Assembly (NCBI GenBank): GCA_947172415.1
Contig: OX359194.1
Coordinates: 3,348,001-3,412,000 of the forward strand
Reading direction: 5' to 3'
DNA from: Chondrosia reniformis
Lineage: Eukaryota; Porifera; Demospongiae; Chondrillida; Chondrillidae
DNA: 64,000 nucleotides
The notes under the pieces were generated by a model. It was not told where the DNA came from and did no database searches. It worked only from the letters and a program-made list of their open reading frames with translations. Each line of letters opens with the position of its first letter. The first letter of the stretch is position 1. A program made the translations under genes and the position numbers. Shown one piece after another: positions 3,438-62,200 of this stretch.

Positions 3438-6147
3438 ACTGGAGGTGTCTGCATTTCGCTGATGACCTTTCGCACTGCATCCTCTGAGGGTACTTGGGAG
3501 CGTGCTTTGGTGCTGGGGGACAAGGTGACCCCTGGGGCCAGGGGATAGTCATGCGGACCAGCCACTTTGATGTTTGAGGTTGGCATTCCTCCATCTGTGG
3601 TGGGCAACAAACAGTCAGTCCTATTAACTGAGGTACACTCAGATAATGTACAGCAGCTGTACATGTAGAAGTTAGACAATGAATAAATAATTACAAACTG
3701 AATACAAAACAAGGATTCAGGAGAGATCAAGATCAAAAAGAGGATAAAGACTCCCAGGGTCACTGATGAAGGGTGGAATTCCCAGAAACAGCTGTCTAGC
3801 CCATCCAAAGCTCTCTCCAGGTTTAGGTCCCTATCAACCCTTTTTGAAAGAGTAGATATAGCATGTAGGAAAATGGTGTATTAGATTTTTCGTAATATTT
3901 AATCTTTCAAAAGGGCAGCTTTCCATCATGCCATGAAGGATGCACCACAAAGAATTTAGAAGCACAACTACGTATATTTACATTACATTTGAGGGCACAC
4001 TTACAAACGTATGTACACTCAAATGTAAGAGAGTAAGCGTCTTAACGACTGATAGGCGAAAAGGAACTAAATACTACCAAGATTTCAGAGAGGGGTACTT
4101 TCCACATCTCCGATATAATAAGTCCATTTGGTGCTGCCCACTTTCATCTTTAACCACTACCTTTATCATTATTGCTGCTAACTACACAATCATTACATAT
4201 GTACATACTGTAGGTACATACCTGTGGTTTTGGCTAGAGGCTGTCCTGTCATTCTAGCCACTCTTTCATTAGGGGCAGCCATGTTCTTCACTGGCTCATA
4301 TTCATCACGAACCTTACAAGCAATCTTCTGCTTCAGACTACAAAATCCCAGACAAAATATGTTTCATACTGTGGAGCTTATGAACTTTTAAAATTCACAT
4401 AGCAAGCATCTCATACAAGACAGAATGGAAGCTTATGTAGTGGTACCTCAATCAACTAAATGTGATAACAGTTTCATTGCTAACTTTGTAGAGTGCATAT
4501 ATACTATACTGTGGTACATGAAACATTTAAAATACCTTCTATCAGGAATTGAATGCATGTGCCTAAAGAAAGATTGTGAGTTTCGCCTACATCCACATCT
4601 TTTGACATGTATTCATTTGATTACTCGGTACTAGTCTATACACCTTAACCTTCATCTCACATTTTTAACCACAATGTTTTACCTGACATTTGGATAAATC
4701 GCAATCTGTTACCTTCACATTTGACTTTGGATACACAGTATGCATCTTAAATTATTATTGGGAGTTTTGGAGATAAAAATCCTTTTTCTTTTGCACTGAG
4801 TCCATATCAGTGTAAGGATTGAATACCAGTTTCAATTTAAAATGCACTATATTCCTACGTACATGCAATGTAATTTTACAATTGTTGTCTTTAGAAATAT
4901 TTTCATAAATGACACATTGGTATATATATATATATATATCATTGACTGAGTGAAGAAAAGATCAGACTGTATTCTCATTCAAAGCTCTATAGGGTTACCT
5001 GAACAGGAAGTCTAAGAAATTGTGTTTTTATGTAATTCATTCAAGTGTGCTTCCTCATCCTAATATTCATATTAATCACAAGTCTAGGAAAGAGGTGTTC
5101 TACATTAATCAACTATTGTCTCTTTTTGAATTCTTTACAATTGCTTAACCGGTCATTGATAAAATGTAATGTGAATAATATATACCATATACAAACAATA
5201 TTGGTAGCAATAATGCCAATTTTTTATATAAGAAGCATGTTGTAGAAAAGACATTATTGGTTGAGACAATTTGTGTATTAGACTTAACAATCTTGGGAAC
5301 AATGACATAGCAGGAATTAATGAACAATAACAACAATGGTTTTCATGTAGCTTTACACCAAAAGTCTGTACTTGAGGATTGAAGATTAAGCTCCTAGAAA
5401 AGTAGTAATCGGGCTAGTTATGTGGGGGGACACTCTGGTTCCCATCGAGCAAACTTTGGGTCCTCCCATTAGCTCATTGTGCTCCTCAGGAGACATGAGT
5501 GGGAAGGGGTAATATCCAGAGTTTAATGATGACAATATAGTTATGTATGTATGTATATACCAGTAAAATGAGGTTACATGAAAATGGAGACCAAGAATAT
5601 ATTACTCATATCAGCCAAGTCCATACCAGTATTAGAGATCTACCCACAGTCCTAACATACAAGGTAATCAAAAATGGATGCTACCCATAAGATCTCATTC
5701 ACAACATGACAATCACATAAGACAAGGACCTCTCTTCGTCCTCTGGTACTGGTTGGCCCTCCTCTGATATAAATATGTCGTGTGTCCTCTTCAGTGACCG
5801 AAACACAAGCGTGTGTACAGAATGCTTTACCACATCCTATTGGAGGGAAAACTGAGTAGATCAATCGAGTGATAGGTAGCAATAACACATGATTATGCAC
5901 GTGACAAATAACAAGCTGGGTCATTTCGCGTGCCTTTCTATTGTCTTATTTGAATTGTAAATACTACACCAATTAATAGTAATAACAAATAGAAATAAAA
6001 TAAACTGCCTCATGATGTACTGAATGAGAAAATGTCAAAATAACAGCTTTTCACTAGAGAAATTGACCAGTATATAAATCATCACCCTCTCTGAGGCAAT
6101 AAATCTGTACAATTCGTTGAATTAGCTTTTAATCCACTCACCGCCAT
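3438..6147 (-). CDS. PLRG1: Pleiotropic regulator 1 (PRP19-complex splicing factor), N-terminal exons only
   Basis: Four minus-strand exons join in phase: 6142-6147 (ATGGCG), 5730-5836, 4222-4337 and 3438-3594. They encode about 128 residues. The opening [20 protein letters not shown] is the PLRG1/PRL1 N-terminal signature. It is followed by [20 protein letters not shown] and [13 protein letters not shown], all in family order. PLRG1 is a WD40 protein of the PRP19/CDC5L complex in the nuclear spliceosome. The seven WD40 repeats should follow, and the last exon ends at a good donor (GTGAGT), yet none is found between 3437 and 1. Either a large intron holds the HNH copies and the gene continues beyond the window, or this is a truncated copy. 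The donor of exon 2 is non-consensus (GTCCTT). Identification is strong; completeness is not. Confidence 0.85.
5428..5535 (+). repeat. Dispersed fragment of the hammerhead-bearing 352-bp repeat
   Basis: About 108 bp in the PLRG1 first large intron match part of the repeat unit at 24.3 kb: GACACTCTGGTTCCCATC, ATTAGCTCATTG, GCTCCTCAGGAGACATGAG and the CCAGAGTTTAATGATGA end. The ribozyme segment is missing. It is diverged at several positions, so it is an older, partial copy. Confidence 0.75.
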
Positions 6148-22360: not shown

Positions 22361-23865
22361 CAGAGAGTACGGTAGTACTCTCTAAGTAGGGATGGCCGGA
22401 AAAAAAAACATGGCCGCCCTATTCAATGTATTATCAATTAACACCTAATAAATCAACAGCGATAGGTTTTTTGCTTGTATTCGAGTGTTTGCAGTCGTTT
22501 TTGCATGCTTTTCTAAACGCCACAACATGTTTCGATGCTCTACAACCTTCGCAAAGTGGTCAAACCGAAATAGGCCAAATTCTGAAATTCCTCATTTTTC
22601 TTCTTCTTTTTTCAAATGAGCTAGCGCTAACATGCGAACTTACGCAGGTACATACAAGTACTAAATCGTCATGAATGTTTCCGAACTAGGGAATAGGCTA
22701 CCCTAGATTTCAACGCGCTCTATCCGAAGCGTGTTACTTTTTAAAGTGCCAAATTTAGGGCCTCTTCGAACGCCATTTTTAATTAAGTTTCAAATTCTCT
22801 GTATATAAATAAGTAACTCGAGTTAGAAATATTTGTGGTACTGCCGCCCCCCGTGATCGAATTACTTAGTCGCTTTGCAGGGCCTATATATAGTCGTATT
22901 CTTAACGATTACGGACCCTTTAATATCCTAAACTGGATGTTAAAGAACGGTAGAAGATTTATTTGACAAATTTGGGATCTTTTCGGACGCCATTTTTTTA
23001 ATTTAGAGCTCTCGATTATATTGTCTATTCTGCTACTTTATTTCAAATTTTCGCCAAGAAAACTTTCAAAACAAATGTTAATAAGAAAAAAGGAGCAATA
23101 CAAGTTAAATAAAAACATTCAAAAATGAAGTTAAAAGTAGGGATGGCAATGACTGTACAGGCCCGGAGCAAGCAAAATTAGAGTGGAACGGCCTGAATTC
23201 ATGAATATATATAAACGGAAACGGCCATTTTAACGTCCACACGTGTCCATACCAAAATGGCTGTCTTCAATCGCGACGTGTGTCGATTCGTGGATCAACT
23301 CGATTTCCTAAGGGAATAGGCACCTATATATTGGCTGCGTACGTAAGTGCACTACTAATGACTTATGGTAGAATAGTTACTACACTTTTCAATTAAAATA
23401 TAGTCTAGTAATTCTATTCTGCCTTGTGGCAACAGTGGCTAGCTATTTTAAAATTTTAAGTTGAAGTGTAAAAAGTGGTGCGGCCATGGCCGTAGCAGCC
23501 GCACCGGAGGCGCCGGCCCTCACCGTCACCGTCACTCCGAGTCAGTTACAGTGATTGGCACATCTAGAAAAAGTAACGAAACAAGAAAGTGATCATATGG
23601 TAAGGCTAACATTGCAGAAGTGGCATACTGAAACTTAACTATACACATCACTTCTATGTTTGGGCGCATCGATCCCTACTTCTAGTATATCCATGATGCA
23701 CCCAAACATAGAAGTGATGTGTATAGTTAAGTTTCAGTATGCCACTTCTGCAATGTTAGCCTTACCATATGATCACTTTCTTGTTTCGTTACTTTTTCTA
23801 GATGTGCCAATCACTGTTATAGTGCCATCCCTACTTTTAACTTCATTTTTGAATGTTTTTATTTA
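22361..23865 (+). mobile_element. Composite foldback element, family A, copy 1
   Basis: Left end CAGAGAGTACGGTAGTACTC, followed by AGTAGGGATGGCC and CATGGCCGCCCTATTCAATG. Then come about 700 bp of non-coding sequence with CGAACGCCATTTTT units, and a long terminal hairpin. Related copies are at 26634-30049, 48184-48932 (mixed hairpin), 61321-62190 (reverse) and an end fragment at 49858-49957. No transposase frame is present. This copy has an extra ~390-bp GC-richer insert at about 23152-23540. Confidence 0.75.
23540..23840. repeat. Perfect-type long hairpin in family A copy 1
   Basis: The arm AGTGATTGGCACATCTAG...CACTTCTATGTTTGGGCGCA is repeated as its complement through TGGCACTAT-like ends, with arms of about 130 bp and a short loop around ATCGATCCCTACTTCTAG. 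An almost identical hairpin occurs at 29718-30015, and a diverged one at 61370-61660. Confidence 0.8.
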
Positions 23866-24190
23866 GAGAATTGCTATGAGAAAGTTGAGGATTAAGCATC
23901 ATCATTTAACTCTGGGTATTACCCCTGCCCACTAGGGGGAGACTCTGGTTCCCATCAAGCGAACTTCGGTTCCGTCCATTAGCTCATTGCGCTCCTCAGG
24001 GGACATGAGTGGGCAGGGGTAATACCCAGAGTTAAATGATGATGATATCGATGCTTTACGATTGGCTTTAGATCTTAAAGTTCCCCTATTTTTTTCCATA
24101 TTAGTGGTCAGCCACACTTTTGGCTGTATCCCTTATCTGTTGATAAGGAAATCACAAGCTTTTTTGCTTCTGGGAGTACTTATTAGCAGA

Positions 24191-24284
24191 CTAGCCACTC
24201 TAACTTCCATCGTATGCCATACTGATGAGTCCTAATAAGGACGAAACAGCTGTCAATGGCTCGACCATATGGCTTGAGTGGCTA
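24191..24284 (+). ncRNA. Type I hammerhead ribozyme 1
   Basis: The core CTGATGA (24222-24228) is followed by stem II GTCC / GGAC with loop TAATAA, then GAAAC (24243-24247). A very short stem III forms within ACAGCTGTC, and cleavage is predicted after GTC at 24254. Stem I pairs GCCAT upstream with ATGGC downstream, leaving an A-A mismatch next to the site. It is extended by GTATG/CATAT and by a distal 10-bp helix CTAGCCACTC / GAGTGGCTAG. All invariant core bases are present. A 3-bp stem III is weak alone, so cleavage may need a dimer or tertiary contacts. Confidence 0.88.
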
Positions 24285-24542
24285 GGGGGAGACTCTGGTT
24301 CCCATCAAGCGAACTTCGGTTCCGCCCATTAGCTCATTGCGCTCCTCAGGGGACATGAGTGGGCAGGGGTAATACCCAGAGTTAAATGATGATGATGATA
24401 TCGATGCTTTACGATTGGCTTTAGATCTTAAAGTTCCCCTATTTTTTCCATATTAGTGGTCAGCCACACTTTTGGCTGTATCCCTTATCTACTGATAAGG
24501 AAACCACAAGCTTTTTTGCTTCTGGGAGTACTTATTAGCAGA

Positions 24543-24636
24543 CTAGCCACTCTAACTTCCATCGTATGCCATACTGATGAGTCCTAATAAGGACGAAACA
24601 GCTGTCAATGGCTCGACCATATGGCTTGAGTGGCTA
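24543..24636 (+). ncRNA. Type I hammerhead ribozyme 2
   Basis: Same sequence and fold as ribozyme 1, exactly 352 nt downstream. The core CTGATGA is at 24574-24580, with stem II GTCC/GGAC, then GAAAC and predicted cleavage after GTC at 24606. The pair of ribozymes would release one 352-nt RNA monomer from a longer transcript. Confidence 0.88.
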
Positions 24637-24745
24637 GGGGGAGACTCTGGTTCCCATCAAGCGAACTTCAGTTCCACCCATTAGCTCATTGCGCTCCTCA
24701 GGGGACATGAGTGGGCAGGGGTAATACCCTGAGTTAAATGATGAT

Positions 24746-25083
24746 GACACCATTTTCCTACATGCTATGCCTATTCTGTAAAAAGGGGGAACTAAAGCCT
24801 GAAGTGAGCTTTGGATGAAGATACTTTCTTTCATCTATGCAATTTCTTAATTCTATGCAATTTCTGACCAGAGGTATTTGAAAATGACATGCACATTGCA
24901 TATCCATATTTTGGTTCATCAGAAAATTTCCATTGATGATTTATAGGGAAAAGAAAATTCATGCTGGCACGCACTATAGCCTATAATTAACAAAACCTTG
25001 CACATATGCATGTATACATGTATATGGTTTAGCACAACATCATGCAGATCAGATCTGCATGTGCTTATATAAATAATATGTAG
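24746..25083. other. Intergenic, no gene seen
   Basis: Short AT-rich stretch between the retrozyme-like array and the 3' end of the glycosyltransferase-like gene. No feature is supported. Confidence 0.4.
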
Positions 25084-26481
25084 CTAGAATCTCATATGGG
25101 GATATGAATAGCATTTAGTGTTCGTACAACACGACTGTTTTTGATAGGGTATCAATCCAATATTTGTAGCTAAGGTGGAAAATGTACTTCTAGCCAACAG
25201 GCAAACTTCAGAATGAATCATCATCCAAATTTCCACGAGTGTATTAATAATGTCATCTTCACATTTTTTAAATTGCTTATCTTTTTTCACTACCACATCC
25301 TTTTGTGTATGGTATGTCTCTGTGTTGAAGGTCACAAATTTTGCACTACCAAACTGCTCATTTGCTAATGCCTTCAGCTCTTTAGACTCAGTTAGTAATA
25401 CTACAGGTAGAGCAATAGCATTTTTCTCCACATAACTTAAGGCACAGTGTAGTTGCTTATTCCAAGATTCTCTAGTTGGAGTAAACCGTGGATCATTTTC
25501 TTTTCTCCCACTAGTAAATAGACCTGTACGAACATGCATAGTAGCATATTTGCTGGTAATGTGATGCTTTGTTTTAAATGTGCTTGCTTTCAAAGACAGA
25601 GTGTCAGCCTGAGTGAAATCAACTAGTAAATGAGTAAGTAAGGCTGTTATAAAGACGTGAGTGCGATCGTCCTCTTCGGGAATCTGCCTGAAGAGCCACA
25701 TCTCTTCTACTATGCTGATGCATGGCGAACCTGGATAACCGTCGAGTTTGTCAAAACCAATTTGGTGGTTTATGTTAACTAATATTATAGTTTCTTCAGT
25801 AAAGGCATCTTTGCATTCTAATGTTTTATGTTTCTGAGTTTTTATTTGTAGTTGACGATCTAATTCCTCTGTGACTTGCCAAGGTATAACGTTTGGCTTC
25901 CAAATAAACAAGGTATCGTTGCATTGAGGCCAAAAGTCAACAAGGAAGAATCTTCCAGAAAAAATTGATAATAAAAATGCAAATCTAACGTTCGCCACCA
26001 TGTCGCCAATACCGATGTCTCTTTCTACTCCAAAAGCAGGTCGCTGAACATGCATCCATTTTACTTGACTGTAATTGAATGGCGTATTTCTGTTCTTCAA
26101 TGACTTATCAATATCTTGCACCCATTGAATATAATCGTATATTTTCCCCAAAACTTGTCGAAAAGAACTGTTTACACTGGAGGAACACACAAGCTGGTAG
26201 CATTCCTCGACAAAATCTTGACGTACAAGTATCGATCCGGTGGAGCCGTTTAGGATTCCATGACACAATTCCTTACACCCCAGGCTACTTAATTTGCTTG
26301 AAGGACCATATGATTCAGATGTGTTTGCAGGCCGACGAGCTTTTTCGTATTCTACCAGACCTTTTTCGAAAGCAATTGACATCTTCGGCATCTCCTTTCG
26401 CAGGAACAATCGACACATTAGGATAAGTATAACTATAGCAATGAAAAACAAAAACTGCCTTATTTTAATTGGGCGAGTCAT
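25084..26481 (-). CDS. Putative Golgi type II glycosyltransferase (fucosyltransferase-like), intronless
   Basis: 465 residues in one exon. A short basic N-terminus (MTRPIKIRQ) and one hydrophobic helix FLFFIAIVILILMCRLFL, then a luminal domain with N-glycosylation sequons, give the classic Golgi type II topology. The C-terminal half has YATMHVRTG, a TESKELKALA strand-helix unit, and EVCLLARSTFSTLA. The HVRTG and SxFS-type elements resemble GDP-fucose-using transferases of the GT11/GT23/GT37 sort, so fucose transfer to a glycan is inferred, not shown. ATG 26481 was chosen; the frame extends seven codons upstream only to GTG. The intact frame without introns contrasts with its spliced neighbours. 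It could instead be another Rossmann-fold glycosyltransferase. Confidence 0.6.
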   Translation of the reverse strand: MTRPIKIRQFLFFIAIVILILMCRLFLRKEMPKMSIAFEKGLVEYEKARRPANTSESYGPSSKLSSLGCKELCHGILNGSTGSILVRQDFVEECYQLVCSSSVNSSFRQVLGKIYDYIQWVQDIDKSLKNRNTPFNYSQVKWMHVQRPAFGVERDIGIGDMVANVRFAFLLSIFSGRFFLVDFWPQCNDTLFIWKPNVIPWQVTEELDRQLQIKTQKHKTLECKDAFTEETIILVNINHQIGFDKLDGYPGSPCISIVEEMWLFRQIPEEDDRTHVFITALLTHLLVDFTQADTLSLKASTFKTKHHITSKYATMHVRTGLFTSGRKENDPRFTPTRESWNKQLHCALSYVEKNAIALPVVLLTESKELKALANEQFGSAKFVTFNTETYHTQKDVVVKKDKQFKKCEDDIINTLVEIWMMIHSEVCLLARSTFSTLATNIGLIPYQKQSCCTNTKCYSYPHMRF

Positions 26482-26537
26482 GGCTATAAGTGACCTGGTC
26501 ACTCAATTTGAAATTCACCGAAGAATGCCCCTAAAAA

Positions 26538-50229: not shown

Positions 50230-50400
50230 ATAATCAAAGTGATAATCAAACCACAAGTACTTAAAATCAGTCAAACATCATAAAGAGGGAAAACACGAAA
50301 GACGCAATTGCTGGGAATCAAACCCACATGCAGGACAGCTGGTTTTGACAACCAGTTGCTCTGCCACTGAGCTACAATAGCCACAGCAATGCCTCTCCCA
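50230..50400 (-). mobile_element. tRNA-derived SINE, copy 1
   Basis: On the minus strand, TGTAGCTCAGTGGCAGAGC matches an A box and GGGTTTGATTCCCAGC a B box, with CTGGT/ACCAG as an anticodon-like stem. Position 33 of the loop is not U, so a functional tRNA is unlikely. A shared non-tRNA tail (TTTATGATG..., CTTGTGGTTTGA) is also found after the copy at 60695, which defines a SINE family. Confidence 0.75.
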
Positions 50401-59240: not shown

Positions 59241-62200
59241 CCTTTGTCAAAGCCACACCCCCAGGGTGCTCCCCTGCAGTACCAGGGTACCCCACCCCAC
59301 CTGAAAGGTACCCCACCCCACCTAAAAGCTACCCCACCACATCTACAAGGTACTGCGATACAGCCCCAGGGTACCCCACCACACCTACAAGGTACTGCAA
59401 TACAGCCCCGGGGTACCACACATCTACAAGGTACTGCGATACAGCCCCGGGGTACCACACCACATCTACAAGGTACTGCGATACAGCCCCGGGGTACCAC
59501 ACCACATCTACAAGGTACTGCAATACAGCCCCGGGGTACCACACATCTACAAGGTACTGCGATACAGCCCCGGGGTACCACACCACATCTACAAGGTACT
59601 GCAATACAGCCCCGGGGTACCACACATCTACAAGGTACTGCGATACAGCCCCGGGGTACCACACCACATCTACAAGGTACTGCGATACAGCCCCGGGGTA
59701 CCACACCACATCTACAAGGTACTGCAATACAGCCCCGGGGTACCACACCACATCTACAAGGTACTGCAATACAGCCCCGGGGTACCACACCACATCTACA
59801 AGGTACTGCAATACAGCCCCGGGGTACTCCACTACAGGCCCAGGGTGTTACTACCGATGAGAACCCTCCAGTTCGAGTTGAAGGTATACCTGGTCCAATA
59901 AAATGGACTAATGCAAAGAGTTACTTAGAGCTGGCATTTGATGATGAATTTAAAGGAGGAGGAGAAATTGAAGATGGAGGCATAGTTATTAAAGGATCAA
60001 CAGCACTGATTACCTTTAAAGATCCACAAGGTATGCACTCACATATACATGTGAACATTCATTCAGCCAGGATGAGAACTTTGGTCACTTGGCTGGTTTA
60101 GTTTAATATTTTTCCAGTGATTATATCATAACCTTTGTATAAGCATTGTGCAATCAATGTGCATATTACATGCATGGACATACGTATGTACTGTACGTAT
60201 ATTATGTACATGTTCTATATGTTTACAGTTGCCCAGAGGGTTGTTGCCAGGAATGTGTGGGACATTATGGGTGTGCCTTTGAGAGTGTCTTTTCCTCAAA
60301 GGAAACGAGATCCACTGGAACAAGTCATGCGGGAGTGTAACCCATCTAATACAATTGTTCTTGGGAATATTCCAAATGGTATTGGTGATGAACATCTTTT
60401 ACTCTACATTGAGAATATTACAGGACTGGAAGAGAATGAGTACAAATTACACTTTCAAGGCAGAGAGGAAGCATTGCTCATTCTGAGTTCTAAGAGTAAG
60501 TATCTCACTGTATACTCATTACTGGCTAGTAATGTAATACCATTCTCTACATGATGCCTCTTGTCCTATGTACAACCTACGTACATGGCTTTATGTGTAC
60601 ATACAGTAGGACAGGAGATATATATAGAATTAGCACAATTGTGTTAATTGGGTTCTTGTAGTTGGTACAGGAGGGGAAACATGAGGAAAGCATTGCTAGG
60701 GCAATTGTAGCTCAGTTGTAGCTCAGTTGCAGAGCACAGGTGGTCATAACCAGCTGTCCTGGGCTGAATCCCAGCAATTGCTTTTTTCGTATTTTTCCCT
60801 TTTCATGATGTTTTGATTATACATTTACTTGTGGTTTGACTTTCACATCAATTATTCATAGATATTCTAGAAGTATATACTATATAGACATATATTCATA
60901 CAAGGACATTATGGTTATTATAACTCCAATCGATCCCTCCATTCCAACAGCTGAGCAGCTAGGATTGTGATCTCATTTCACAAAAGTTGCAGAACCCAAA
61001 GAAGCTTCTGAAGAAACAAAATCTGAGAGTTACTCAGCTAGAAGAAGTTAAATCTGTCCTTTTATCTGGCATCAAAGATGAGTCTTTGAAAGAGGACTTT
61101 CTCAAATTGTATTTCAGTAATCGTAAGCAGTCGGGCGGCAGTGATTTCACCAAAGTTTCATTGACTGGGAGAGGAGAAGCCATTGTGACATTCAAAGACC
61201 CCAACAGTATGCTATACATAACTTATGAATCTTTACAATATTTATATAGTATTTAGTATTTAACATATAGAAATGTTCTTGAGACAAGTATTAAAAAATT
61301 GTTGGCTGAACATTTATATACAAAAGTAAATAGAAAACATTTACAAAAATGATGTTAGAAATAGGAATGGCAGTGTTCACTAATACATCTGCAAAAAGTA
61401 TCGAAACAAGACAGTGATTATATGATAAGGCTAATCATACAGAAGTTGCATATATACTGAAATTTAACTTAACCATACACTTCTGTGTTTGGACGCACCA
61501 AGCACTGAAGTAGGAATGGTGCGCCCAAACACAGAGGTGTATGGTTAAGTTACTTAAATTTCAGTATATATGCAACTTCTGTATGATTAGCCTTATCATA
61601 TAATTACTGTCTTGTTTCGATACTTTTTGCAGATGTGTTAGTGAGCACTGCCATTCCTACTTCTAACATCATTTTTGTAAATGTTTTCTATTTACTTTTG
61701 TATTCCCCCTTTTTTCTTCTTAATATTACTTATTTGAAATTGATTTGAAAGTTTTCTTGGCGAAAATCTCGAAATAAACGTCTTAGACAAGAGAAATATG
61801 CCGAAAACTATGATCTCTTAATTAAAAAATGGCGTCCGAGAAGACCACAATTTTCGTTTTTCACAATTAACGTACTTCTTGTAGAGCGCATTCAGATTTA
61901 GGGCGTCTATTCCCTAGTTCGGAAATATTTATGACGATTTATACTTGTACGTGCCCGCACAAGTTCGCATATTAGCGCTAGTCTATTTTGGAAATGAGTC
62001 TATTCCTAGTTAGCCGCTTTTTTGAACGCTGTAGAGCGTCGAAAGACGTTTTGGCATTTAGGAAAGCGTGCATTAATGGCTGCAAATAACCGAATATAAC
62101 CGAAAATCGCTTCGTTGGCGATTTATGAGGTGTTGCTTGCTAATACATTGGATAGGGCGGCCATTTTTTCCTACTTAGAGAGTACTCTGATAGTACACGT

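Follow-up and report, generated by a model that had tools for sequence, protein, structure and literature searches.

How a repeat that encodes no protein is multiplied and inserted in a sponge genome, and what its ribozymes contribute, is the question raised by a locus in the window (the whole 64,000-nucleotide stretch of Chondrosia reniformis DNA analyzed here). The insertion spans 23897..24747 on the forward strand (851 bp, GC 0.46) and consists of a short inverted left arm followed by 2.3 direct units. The direct part was delimited by TRF at 23932-24747 (period 352, 2.3 copies, 97% matches) and comprises unit 1 (23932..24281, +; 350 nt), unit 2 (24282..24633, +; 352 nt), which serves as the reference unit with positions 1-352, and a partial third unit (24634..24747, +) that stops at unit position 114 as a tail-less outer end. 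The original prediction had placed an array of direct repeats at 23897..24745; the direct repeats were borne out, but the left 37 nt are not part of the array. These nucleotides (23897..23933, -) copy unit positions 113-77 in inverted orientation, are 100% complementary to 24008-24044, overlap the right arm by 2 nt, and likewise end without a tail, i.e., they are the stub of a second, head-to-head arm outside the direct array. With both ends tail-less and a flank match score of 6, the window copy is without a target-site duplication. The 352-bp unit has a GC content of 0.45, and the longest stop-free frame of the insertion is 70 aa, in agreement with the proposal that no protein is encoded.

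Two copies of the proposed motif CTGATGA - GTCC/GGAC - GAAAC - ACAGCTGTC were located at 24222-24254 and 24574-24606, spaced by exactly 352 nt. The distal stem I helix CTAGCCACTC/GAGTGGCTAG was also present, with 24191-24200 pairing with 24276-24285 and again at +352, so that the extended stem I of the first ribozyme covers 24191..24285 (+), a pairing seen in computed folds. The covariance search that had been recommended matched both copies full-length to Rfam Hammerhead_1 (RF00163), at 24216..24260 and 24568..24612 (both +, type I), each with 32.2 bits (E 7.3e-6; 1,051 bases searched); both are absent from a default Rfam scan because this score lies just under the curated 34 bits. The predicted cuts, after 24254 and after 24606, agree with those originally named, and their positions imply a predicted 352-nt RNA (24255..24606, +). 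The first base after the cut (unit 326) is A in both window ribozymes, opening the pair that closes stem I; across 74 covered copies, duplicates included, this position is T in 69, A in 3 (two of them the window's), C in 1, and G in 1. The minimum-energy fold of the window copy lacks the hammerhead, whereas that of another copy, L040, retains stems I and II, and enforcing the hammerhead fold costs 5.1 kcal/mol in the window copy versus 5.2 in the family majority. Self-cleavage of a window transcript, as first claimed, is thus plausible but had been put too strongly, given the stem I mutation common to both ribozymes and the minimum-energy fold without the hammerhead, and the window copy may be expected to cut more slowly than the family norm. 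Because two complete ribozymes lie in one arm, it could release a monomer.

The element belongs to a large family. A blastn search of the genome (117.4 Mb, 15 contigs) returned at least 145 matching stretches, and the Rfam type I hammerhead model gave 73 matches at E up to 10, of which 51 were at or above the curated cut-off and 33 scored 37.1 bits. The lowest-scoring among the 73 probably arose by chance; among 14 control genomes, 11 gave matches at E up to 10 and none above the cut-off. With at least 145 related stretches and 51 matches at or above the cut-off, the window element is not a chance pattern. Fifty-two loci were mapped: 44 from L001-L060, after removal of 14 repeated places and two loci of a second hammerhead family (L032, L035), together with L081-L088. 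They represent mainly the best-scoring part of the family, with roughly 35-40 additional places, retrozyme or weak hammerhead (hand count), lying outside the set. Ten of the 52 look like later duplicates of other insertions, with inner junctions in common, and the loci were merged into 42 independent insertions, duplicates being named by hand from those junctions. Other tandem copies, on which the original prediction had made its case partly depend, occur in the genome: two complete ribozymes lie within one arm in 5 of the 42 insertions, window copy included.

The label "retrozyme-like" was apt. Metazoan non-LTR retrozymes are described, in the accessible text of Cervera and de la Pena (2020, PMC7229834), as non-coding tandem units of 150-450 bp with low GC and a type I hammerhead, and the present element has the type I hammerhead, a non-coding unit of 352 bp within that range, a GC content under 50%, direct tandem copies, and many dispersed relatives. 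Duplications longer than 4 bp, many copies, and the presence of Penelope-like elements (PLEs) in the same genome are further likenesses to the elements covered there, such duplications being found in 10/17 insertions of the family and not in the window copy. The same portions of that paper describe direct tandem arrays, whereas the two-ended copies here are mostly head-to-head with two end sites, and circular RNA is only predicted.

The second hammerhead family, found at L032/L076 and L035/L077, has little beyond the hammerhead in common with the retrozyme, and its stem II reads GCCC/GGGC as compared to GTCC/GGAC. Its type I hammerheads lie in single truncated copies (L076 near 4006, L077 near 3973) ending in ...AACTCCCC(C)TTTTCATA, which recalls the retrozyme tail end AGTTCCCCTATTTTTTCC. 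In the window itself, a fragment at 3711-3895 is 78-89% like repeats in L061, L063, L076, L077, and L080 and contains a hammerhead-like core, CTGATGA...GAAACAGCTGTC, at 3763; no Rfam family matched it at E values up to 1. An exact-pattern scan of viral contigs for the hammerhead returned 0 matches.

The arm ends of the family fall into two main classes. Among 88 arm segments, 41 end at unit 109-124 (19 exactly at 114) and 34 at 160-182, while 13 end outside both classes, some of these being split segments. Most insertions with two readable ends consist of two arms placed head-to-head, and the inner junction varies between independent insertions. In 22 of the 23 clearly read two-ended independent insertions, one end lies near unit 114 and the second some 55 nt beyond it (L002, 3, 4, 6, 7, 8, 9, 20, 23, 24, 25, 26, 30, 37, 39, 41, 42, 43, 55, 57, 58, and 82; in L007, L024, and L042 the second end belongs to a short arm), i.e., one end is tail-less and one carries a tail of about 50-60 nt. 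The exception is the window copy, with its two tail-less ends. Independent choice of ends would give at least 22 of 23 with P 2.9e-6, for ends sorted by hand into classes defined after the data had been seen. Of the remaining insertions, six are ambiguous (L016, 29, 31, 33, 49, and 86) and 13 show one end only, including L036 with a weak, uncounted tail match. Common hairpins before the end sites, seemingly visible by eye, were rejected as a feature, as folding of the retrozyme end region was unremarkable (z 0.37).

Target-site duplications accompany the two-armed copies. Flank match scores of 10 or more were obtained for 10 of 17 two-armed non-minisatellite insertions as compared to 0.8% of flank-swapped pairs, which were drawn from the 32 non-minisatellite insertions (the 10 in minisatellite being left out), and two-armed scores exceeded the swapped ones (Mann-Whitney P 2e-11). 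Simple AT or ATT runs account for two of the ten high matches (L006, L043). Good examples are CAAAAGAAGAGATG in L003, AAGAATTAAATGTG in L008, and AATAACTTATAAG in L057, and duplication length differs between insertions. Among one-armed non-minisatellite insertions, 1 of 15 scored 10 or more (P 0.09).

The same insertion anatomy was observed in PLEs resident in this genome. Two frames of 772 and 750 aa match RVT_1 (41.2 and 39.7 bits; cut-off 29.6) and GIY-YIG (23.5 and 22.7 bits; cut-off 22.6), and a minimal hammerhead-like motif lies upstream of the PLE ends. All six two-ended copies that were read (L069, L070, L078 twice, L079, and L080) have one tailed and one tail-less end; L078 represents two insertions paired by matching flanks, an internal duplication giving 2 tailed and 5 tail-less ends. 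Flank matches were 11, 12, 13, and 13 bp in L070, L078 (two), and L079, while L080 lies in minisatellite with a longer flank match, and 8 bp were seen in L069, where the flank is cut by the locus end. A second family, retrieved with the 3' region of L067 as query and called PLE-like on the above-cut-off GIY-YIG match of L067, follows the rule in 12 of 12 readable head-to-head pairs, with ends at query 140-149 for one arm and 165-178 for its partner (pairs made by hand; 40 of 73 candidates scored; two further possible pairs unreadable). The tails measure about 35 nt in one PLE family and about 25-30 nt in the other. The retrozyme thus obeys the same insertion rule as the resident PLEs. No sequence kinship between retrozyme and PLE ends was found by blastn of the unit against the 20 loci L061-L080, which returned only the second-family hammerhead core (L076, L077) and chance-level matches. 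An alignment of the retrozyme with L067 (shuffle p 0.008 among about 20 comparisons) was rejected, as it lies 3' of the L067-family ends. A 539-aa frame of L080 (5679-7295, -) shows RT-like motifs and matched no Pfam family at E 0.001; we take it to be a second PLE type, Naiad-like.

We read the locus as a retrozyme of the animal type: its RNA, probably circular, would be inserted in trans by the machinery of PLEs. We assign this reading a probability of roughly three in four. A transcript with two ribozymes would cut itself to release a 352-nt RNA, which would probably be circularized. The PLE protein, a reverse transcriptase with GIY-YIG endonuclease encoded in this genome, would take the retrozyme RNA in trans, cut the DNA with a stagger of about 11-13 bp, and prime cDNA on both target strands. 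For each strand, copying would begin at its own internal site in the RNA, the two sites being about 55 nt apart, and the cDNA would run past the ribozyme cut site until the arms joined head-to-head at a variable point. Published work (PMC11167929, in the available portions) supplies the cause of the one-of-each tail rule: both strands are cut and extended by a PLE protein, whose cDNA synthesis begins at two neighboring positions within the RNA, and these positions delimit the tail seen in genomic copies. PLE inserts in rotifers are likewise reported, in the sections of PMC3846280 consulted, to have inverted pLTRs with a tail on one and 8-10 bp duplications. As in the PLEs of these two partially covered sources, the elements here have head-to-head terminal arms, an optional tail at one end, duplications of 8-13 bp, and a hammerhead upstream of the ends. 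PLEs as described there encode RT and GIY-YIG and carry minimal hammerheads, whereas the retrozyme is non-coding with a full type I hammerhead and a longer tail, and the absence of an ORF with RT and GIY-YIG means that the element is not itself a PLE. Counting against insertion by PLE machinery in trans are the two tail-less ends of the window copy and its lack of a duplication, the six ambiguous and 13 one-ended insertions, the longer retrozyme tails, the sequence kinship with PLE ends looked for in L061-L080 and not found, the two high flank matches that are simple runs, and the low rate of high flank matches (1 of 15) among one-armed insertions.

The arms also bear on the form of the template. 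At the cut site (unit 326), 68 of 88 arm segments run past and 19 stop short, and one (L055, with two overlapping arm alignments) stops within 4 nt of it, about 2 being expected if stops were uniform. A linear monomer released by cutting would stop at unit 326, so that this read-through shows the template to have been circular or uncut. Divergence was 3.7% between turns within an arm and 4.8% between arms of one insertion (pooled), as compared to a mean of 8.0% between insertions (untrimmed arms; age uncontrolled), consistent with each insertion arising from one RNA or from very similar RNAs. Two RNA templates per insertion, suggested by L004, whose arms seemed 7-8% apart, were rejected when trimming of the overlap left 3-4 differences in 250; in the duplicated group L009-L017, 3 fixed arm differences were counted in 290 comparable cells.

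Under the principal rival, PLE machinery inserts a multimeric transcript that has not been cut, a template also proposed for PLEs themselves, and the ribozyme serves something else. Arms would cross the cut site in this case also, as nothing would have been cut, and an Anolis PLE inserts unprocessed RNA in vitro, ribozyme mutants being without effect (PMC11167929, in the portions available). However, in loci that had been found independently of the ribozyme, the 45-nt ribozyme diverges less than the rest of the unit, at 1.6% (25/1,525) versus 3.5% (357/10,174) in unit positions 1-259 (Fisher P 5e-5), although other blocks of the unit are as conserved (u243-264, 0.7%; u1-22, 1.8%). The core is intact in 28 of 34 complete ribozymes. 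We read the lower ribozyme divergence as selection on cutting, and hence as favoring a circle. With a double ribozyme per arm in only 5/42 insertions, there are also few visible sources of long multimers, and we regard the uncut multimer as unlikely, though a serious contender. A bolder proposal, which we put forward tentatively, is that Penelope-type reverse transcription naturally takes the RNA circle made by the ribozyme as its template, both arms of one insertion being rolled off the same circle from two fixed internal starts, one per target strand. If so, the retrozyme would be to PLEs as SINEs are to LINEs, and circle-making would be the job of the hammerhead.

The original prediction had looked to host or LINE machinery for mobilization, which was not supported, as the insertion anatomy matches the PLEs of the same genome. 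LINE-type reverse transcriptases are encoded in this genome, with two such frames in the window, target-site duplications of this length occur with LINEs too, and inverted arms could arise from twin priming. Twin priming, however, yields one outer 3' end and an internal position, whereas in this family each outer end is a fixed 3' end belonging to one of two kinds. The LINE pattern of one 3' end with variable 5' truncation does not fit the family either, two outward 3' ends being present in 23/42 insertions and one end only in 13/42; the end positions largely refute LINE-type insertion, which we consider improbable. A cut-and-paste TIR transposon or MITE carrying ribozymes by accident would account for the terminal inverted repeats visible in copies such as that of the window, but the ends differ by the ~55-nt tail, duplication length varies, and almost all independent insertions have inner junctions of their own where a TIR element would inherit a constant interior, making this origin very improbable. 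Satellite-like DNA spread by recombination with the ribozyme as a relic, to which the 10/52 duplicate-like loci lend some color, is the least credible of all, being refuted for the family by the target-site duplications and opposed by dispersal over many contigs, by the fixed ends, and by the lower divergence of the ribozyme.

Retrozymes and the proposal of their mobilization by PLEs are already known; the insertion signature is new. The mobilizer of animal retrozymes was left open as 'LINEs or PLEs among others', with PLEs a 'strong candidate', in the accessible text of PMC7229834, and was still open in the parts available of a 2024 review; the insertion anatomy described here points to PLEs as the carrier. 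No report of the tail rule or of head-to-head anatomy in animal retrozymes, and no previous use of insertion anatomy as evidence on their mobilizer, was found in the literature searched, which included few subscription papers and the accessible parts of PMC7229834, PMC3846280, PMC7761336, PMC8490949, PMC11722881, and PMC11167929. Plant LTR retrozymes are likewise ribozyme-bearing non-autonomous retroelements with circular RNA proposed as an intermediate, but they have a type III hammerhead, LTR, PBS, PPT, and 4-bp duplications (PMC7229834, PMC7761336, both partially covered). The ~330-bp satellite hammerheads of newts (PMC7229834) and the W elements of Schistosoma (PMC8490949) are also repeats with type I hammerheads; a presumptive duplication is given for one W element (PMC8490949), and a two-armed, two-end-site anatomy is not described for either in the portions of these papers available. 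Taken together, the two-site, one-of-each tail rule and the short duplications form a signature by which PLE insertion can be told from LINE insertion in genomic sequence and which can be sought in the retrozymes of coral, mussel, and axolotl, and the role of the hammerhead in PLE-type transposition becomes testable.

A common insertion target was also considered. The TACTAGTTGTATG-type minisatellite hosts 10 of 42 insertions versus a rough 7% of the genome (binomial P 5e-4), and 15 of 19 listed PLE ends have minisatellite nearby; this reading was given little weight because the 7% figure is an extrapolation from biased loci and the listed PLE ends lack independence. The minisatellite ACTAGTTGTATGT itself gave 7,227 exact genome matches to a 25-mer of two units and 0 to the reversed control, and amounts to roughly 8 Mb by extrapolation.

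Several other features of the window were recorded. Adjoining the retrozyme, a hairpin element at 23548-23817 has 123-nt arms that are 99% complementary with 24 nt between them, and is probably a young MITE or hairpin. Nearby, a 472-aa frame (25087-26502, -) matched no Pfam family and has 5 homologues at E 1e-10 or better, one of them 93% identical. At the left edge of the window, two frames that resemble each other (213-653 and 2382-2750) contain HNH endonuclease domains (PF01844; 40.9 and 47.3 bits). A tRNA-like match (38.7 bits) lies at 50303-50381 (-), and a 42-bp tandem repeat of about 12 copies at 59330-59827 is open in several frames on both strands.
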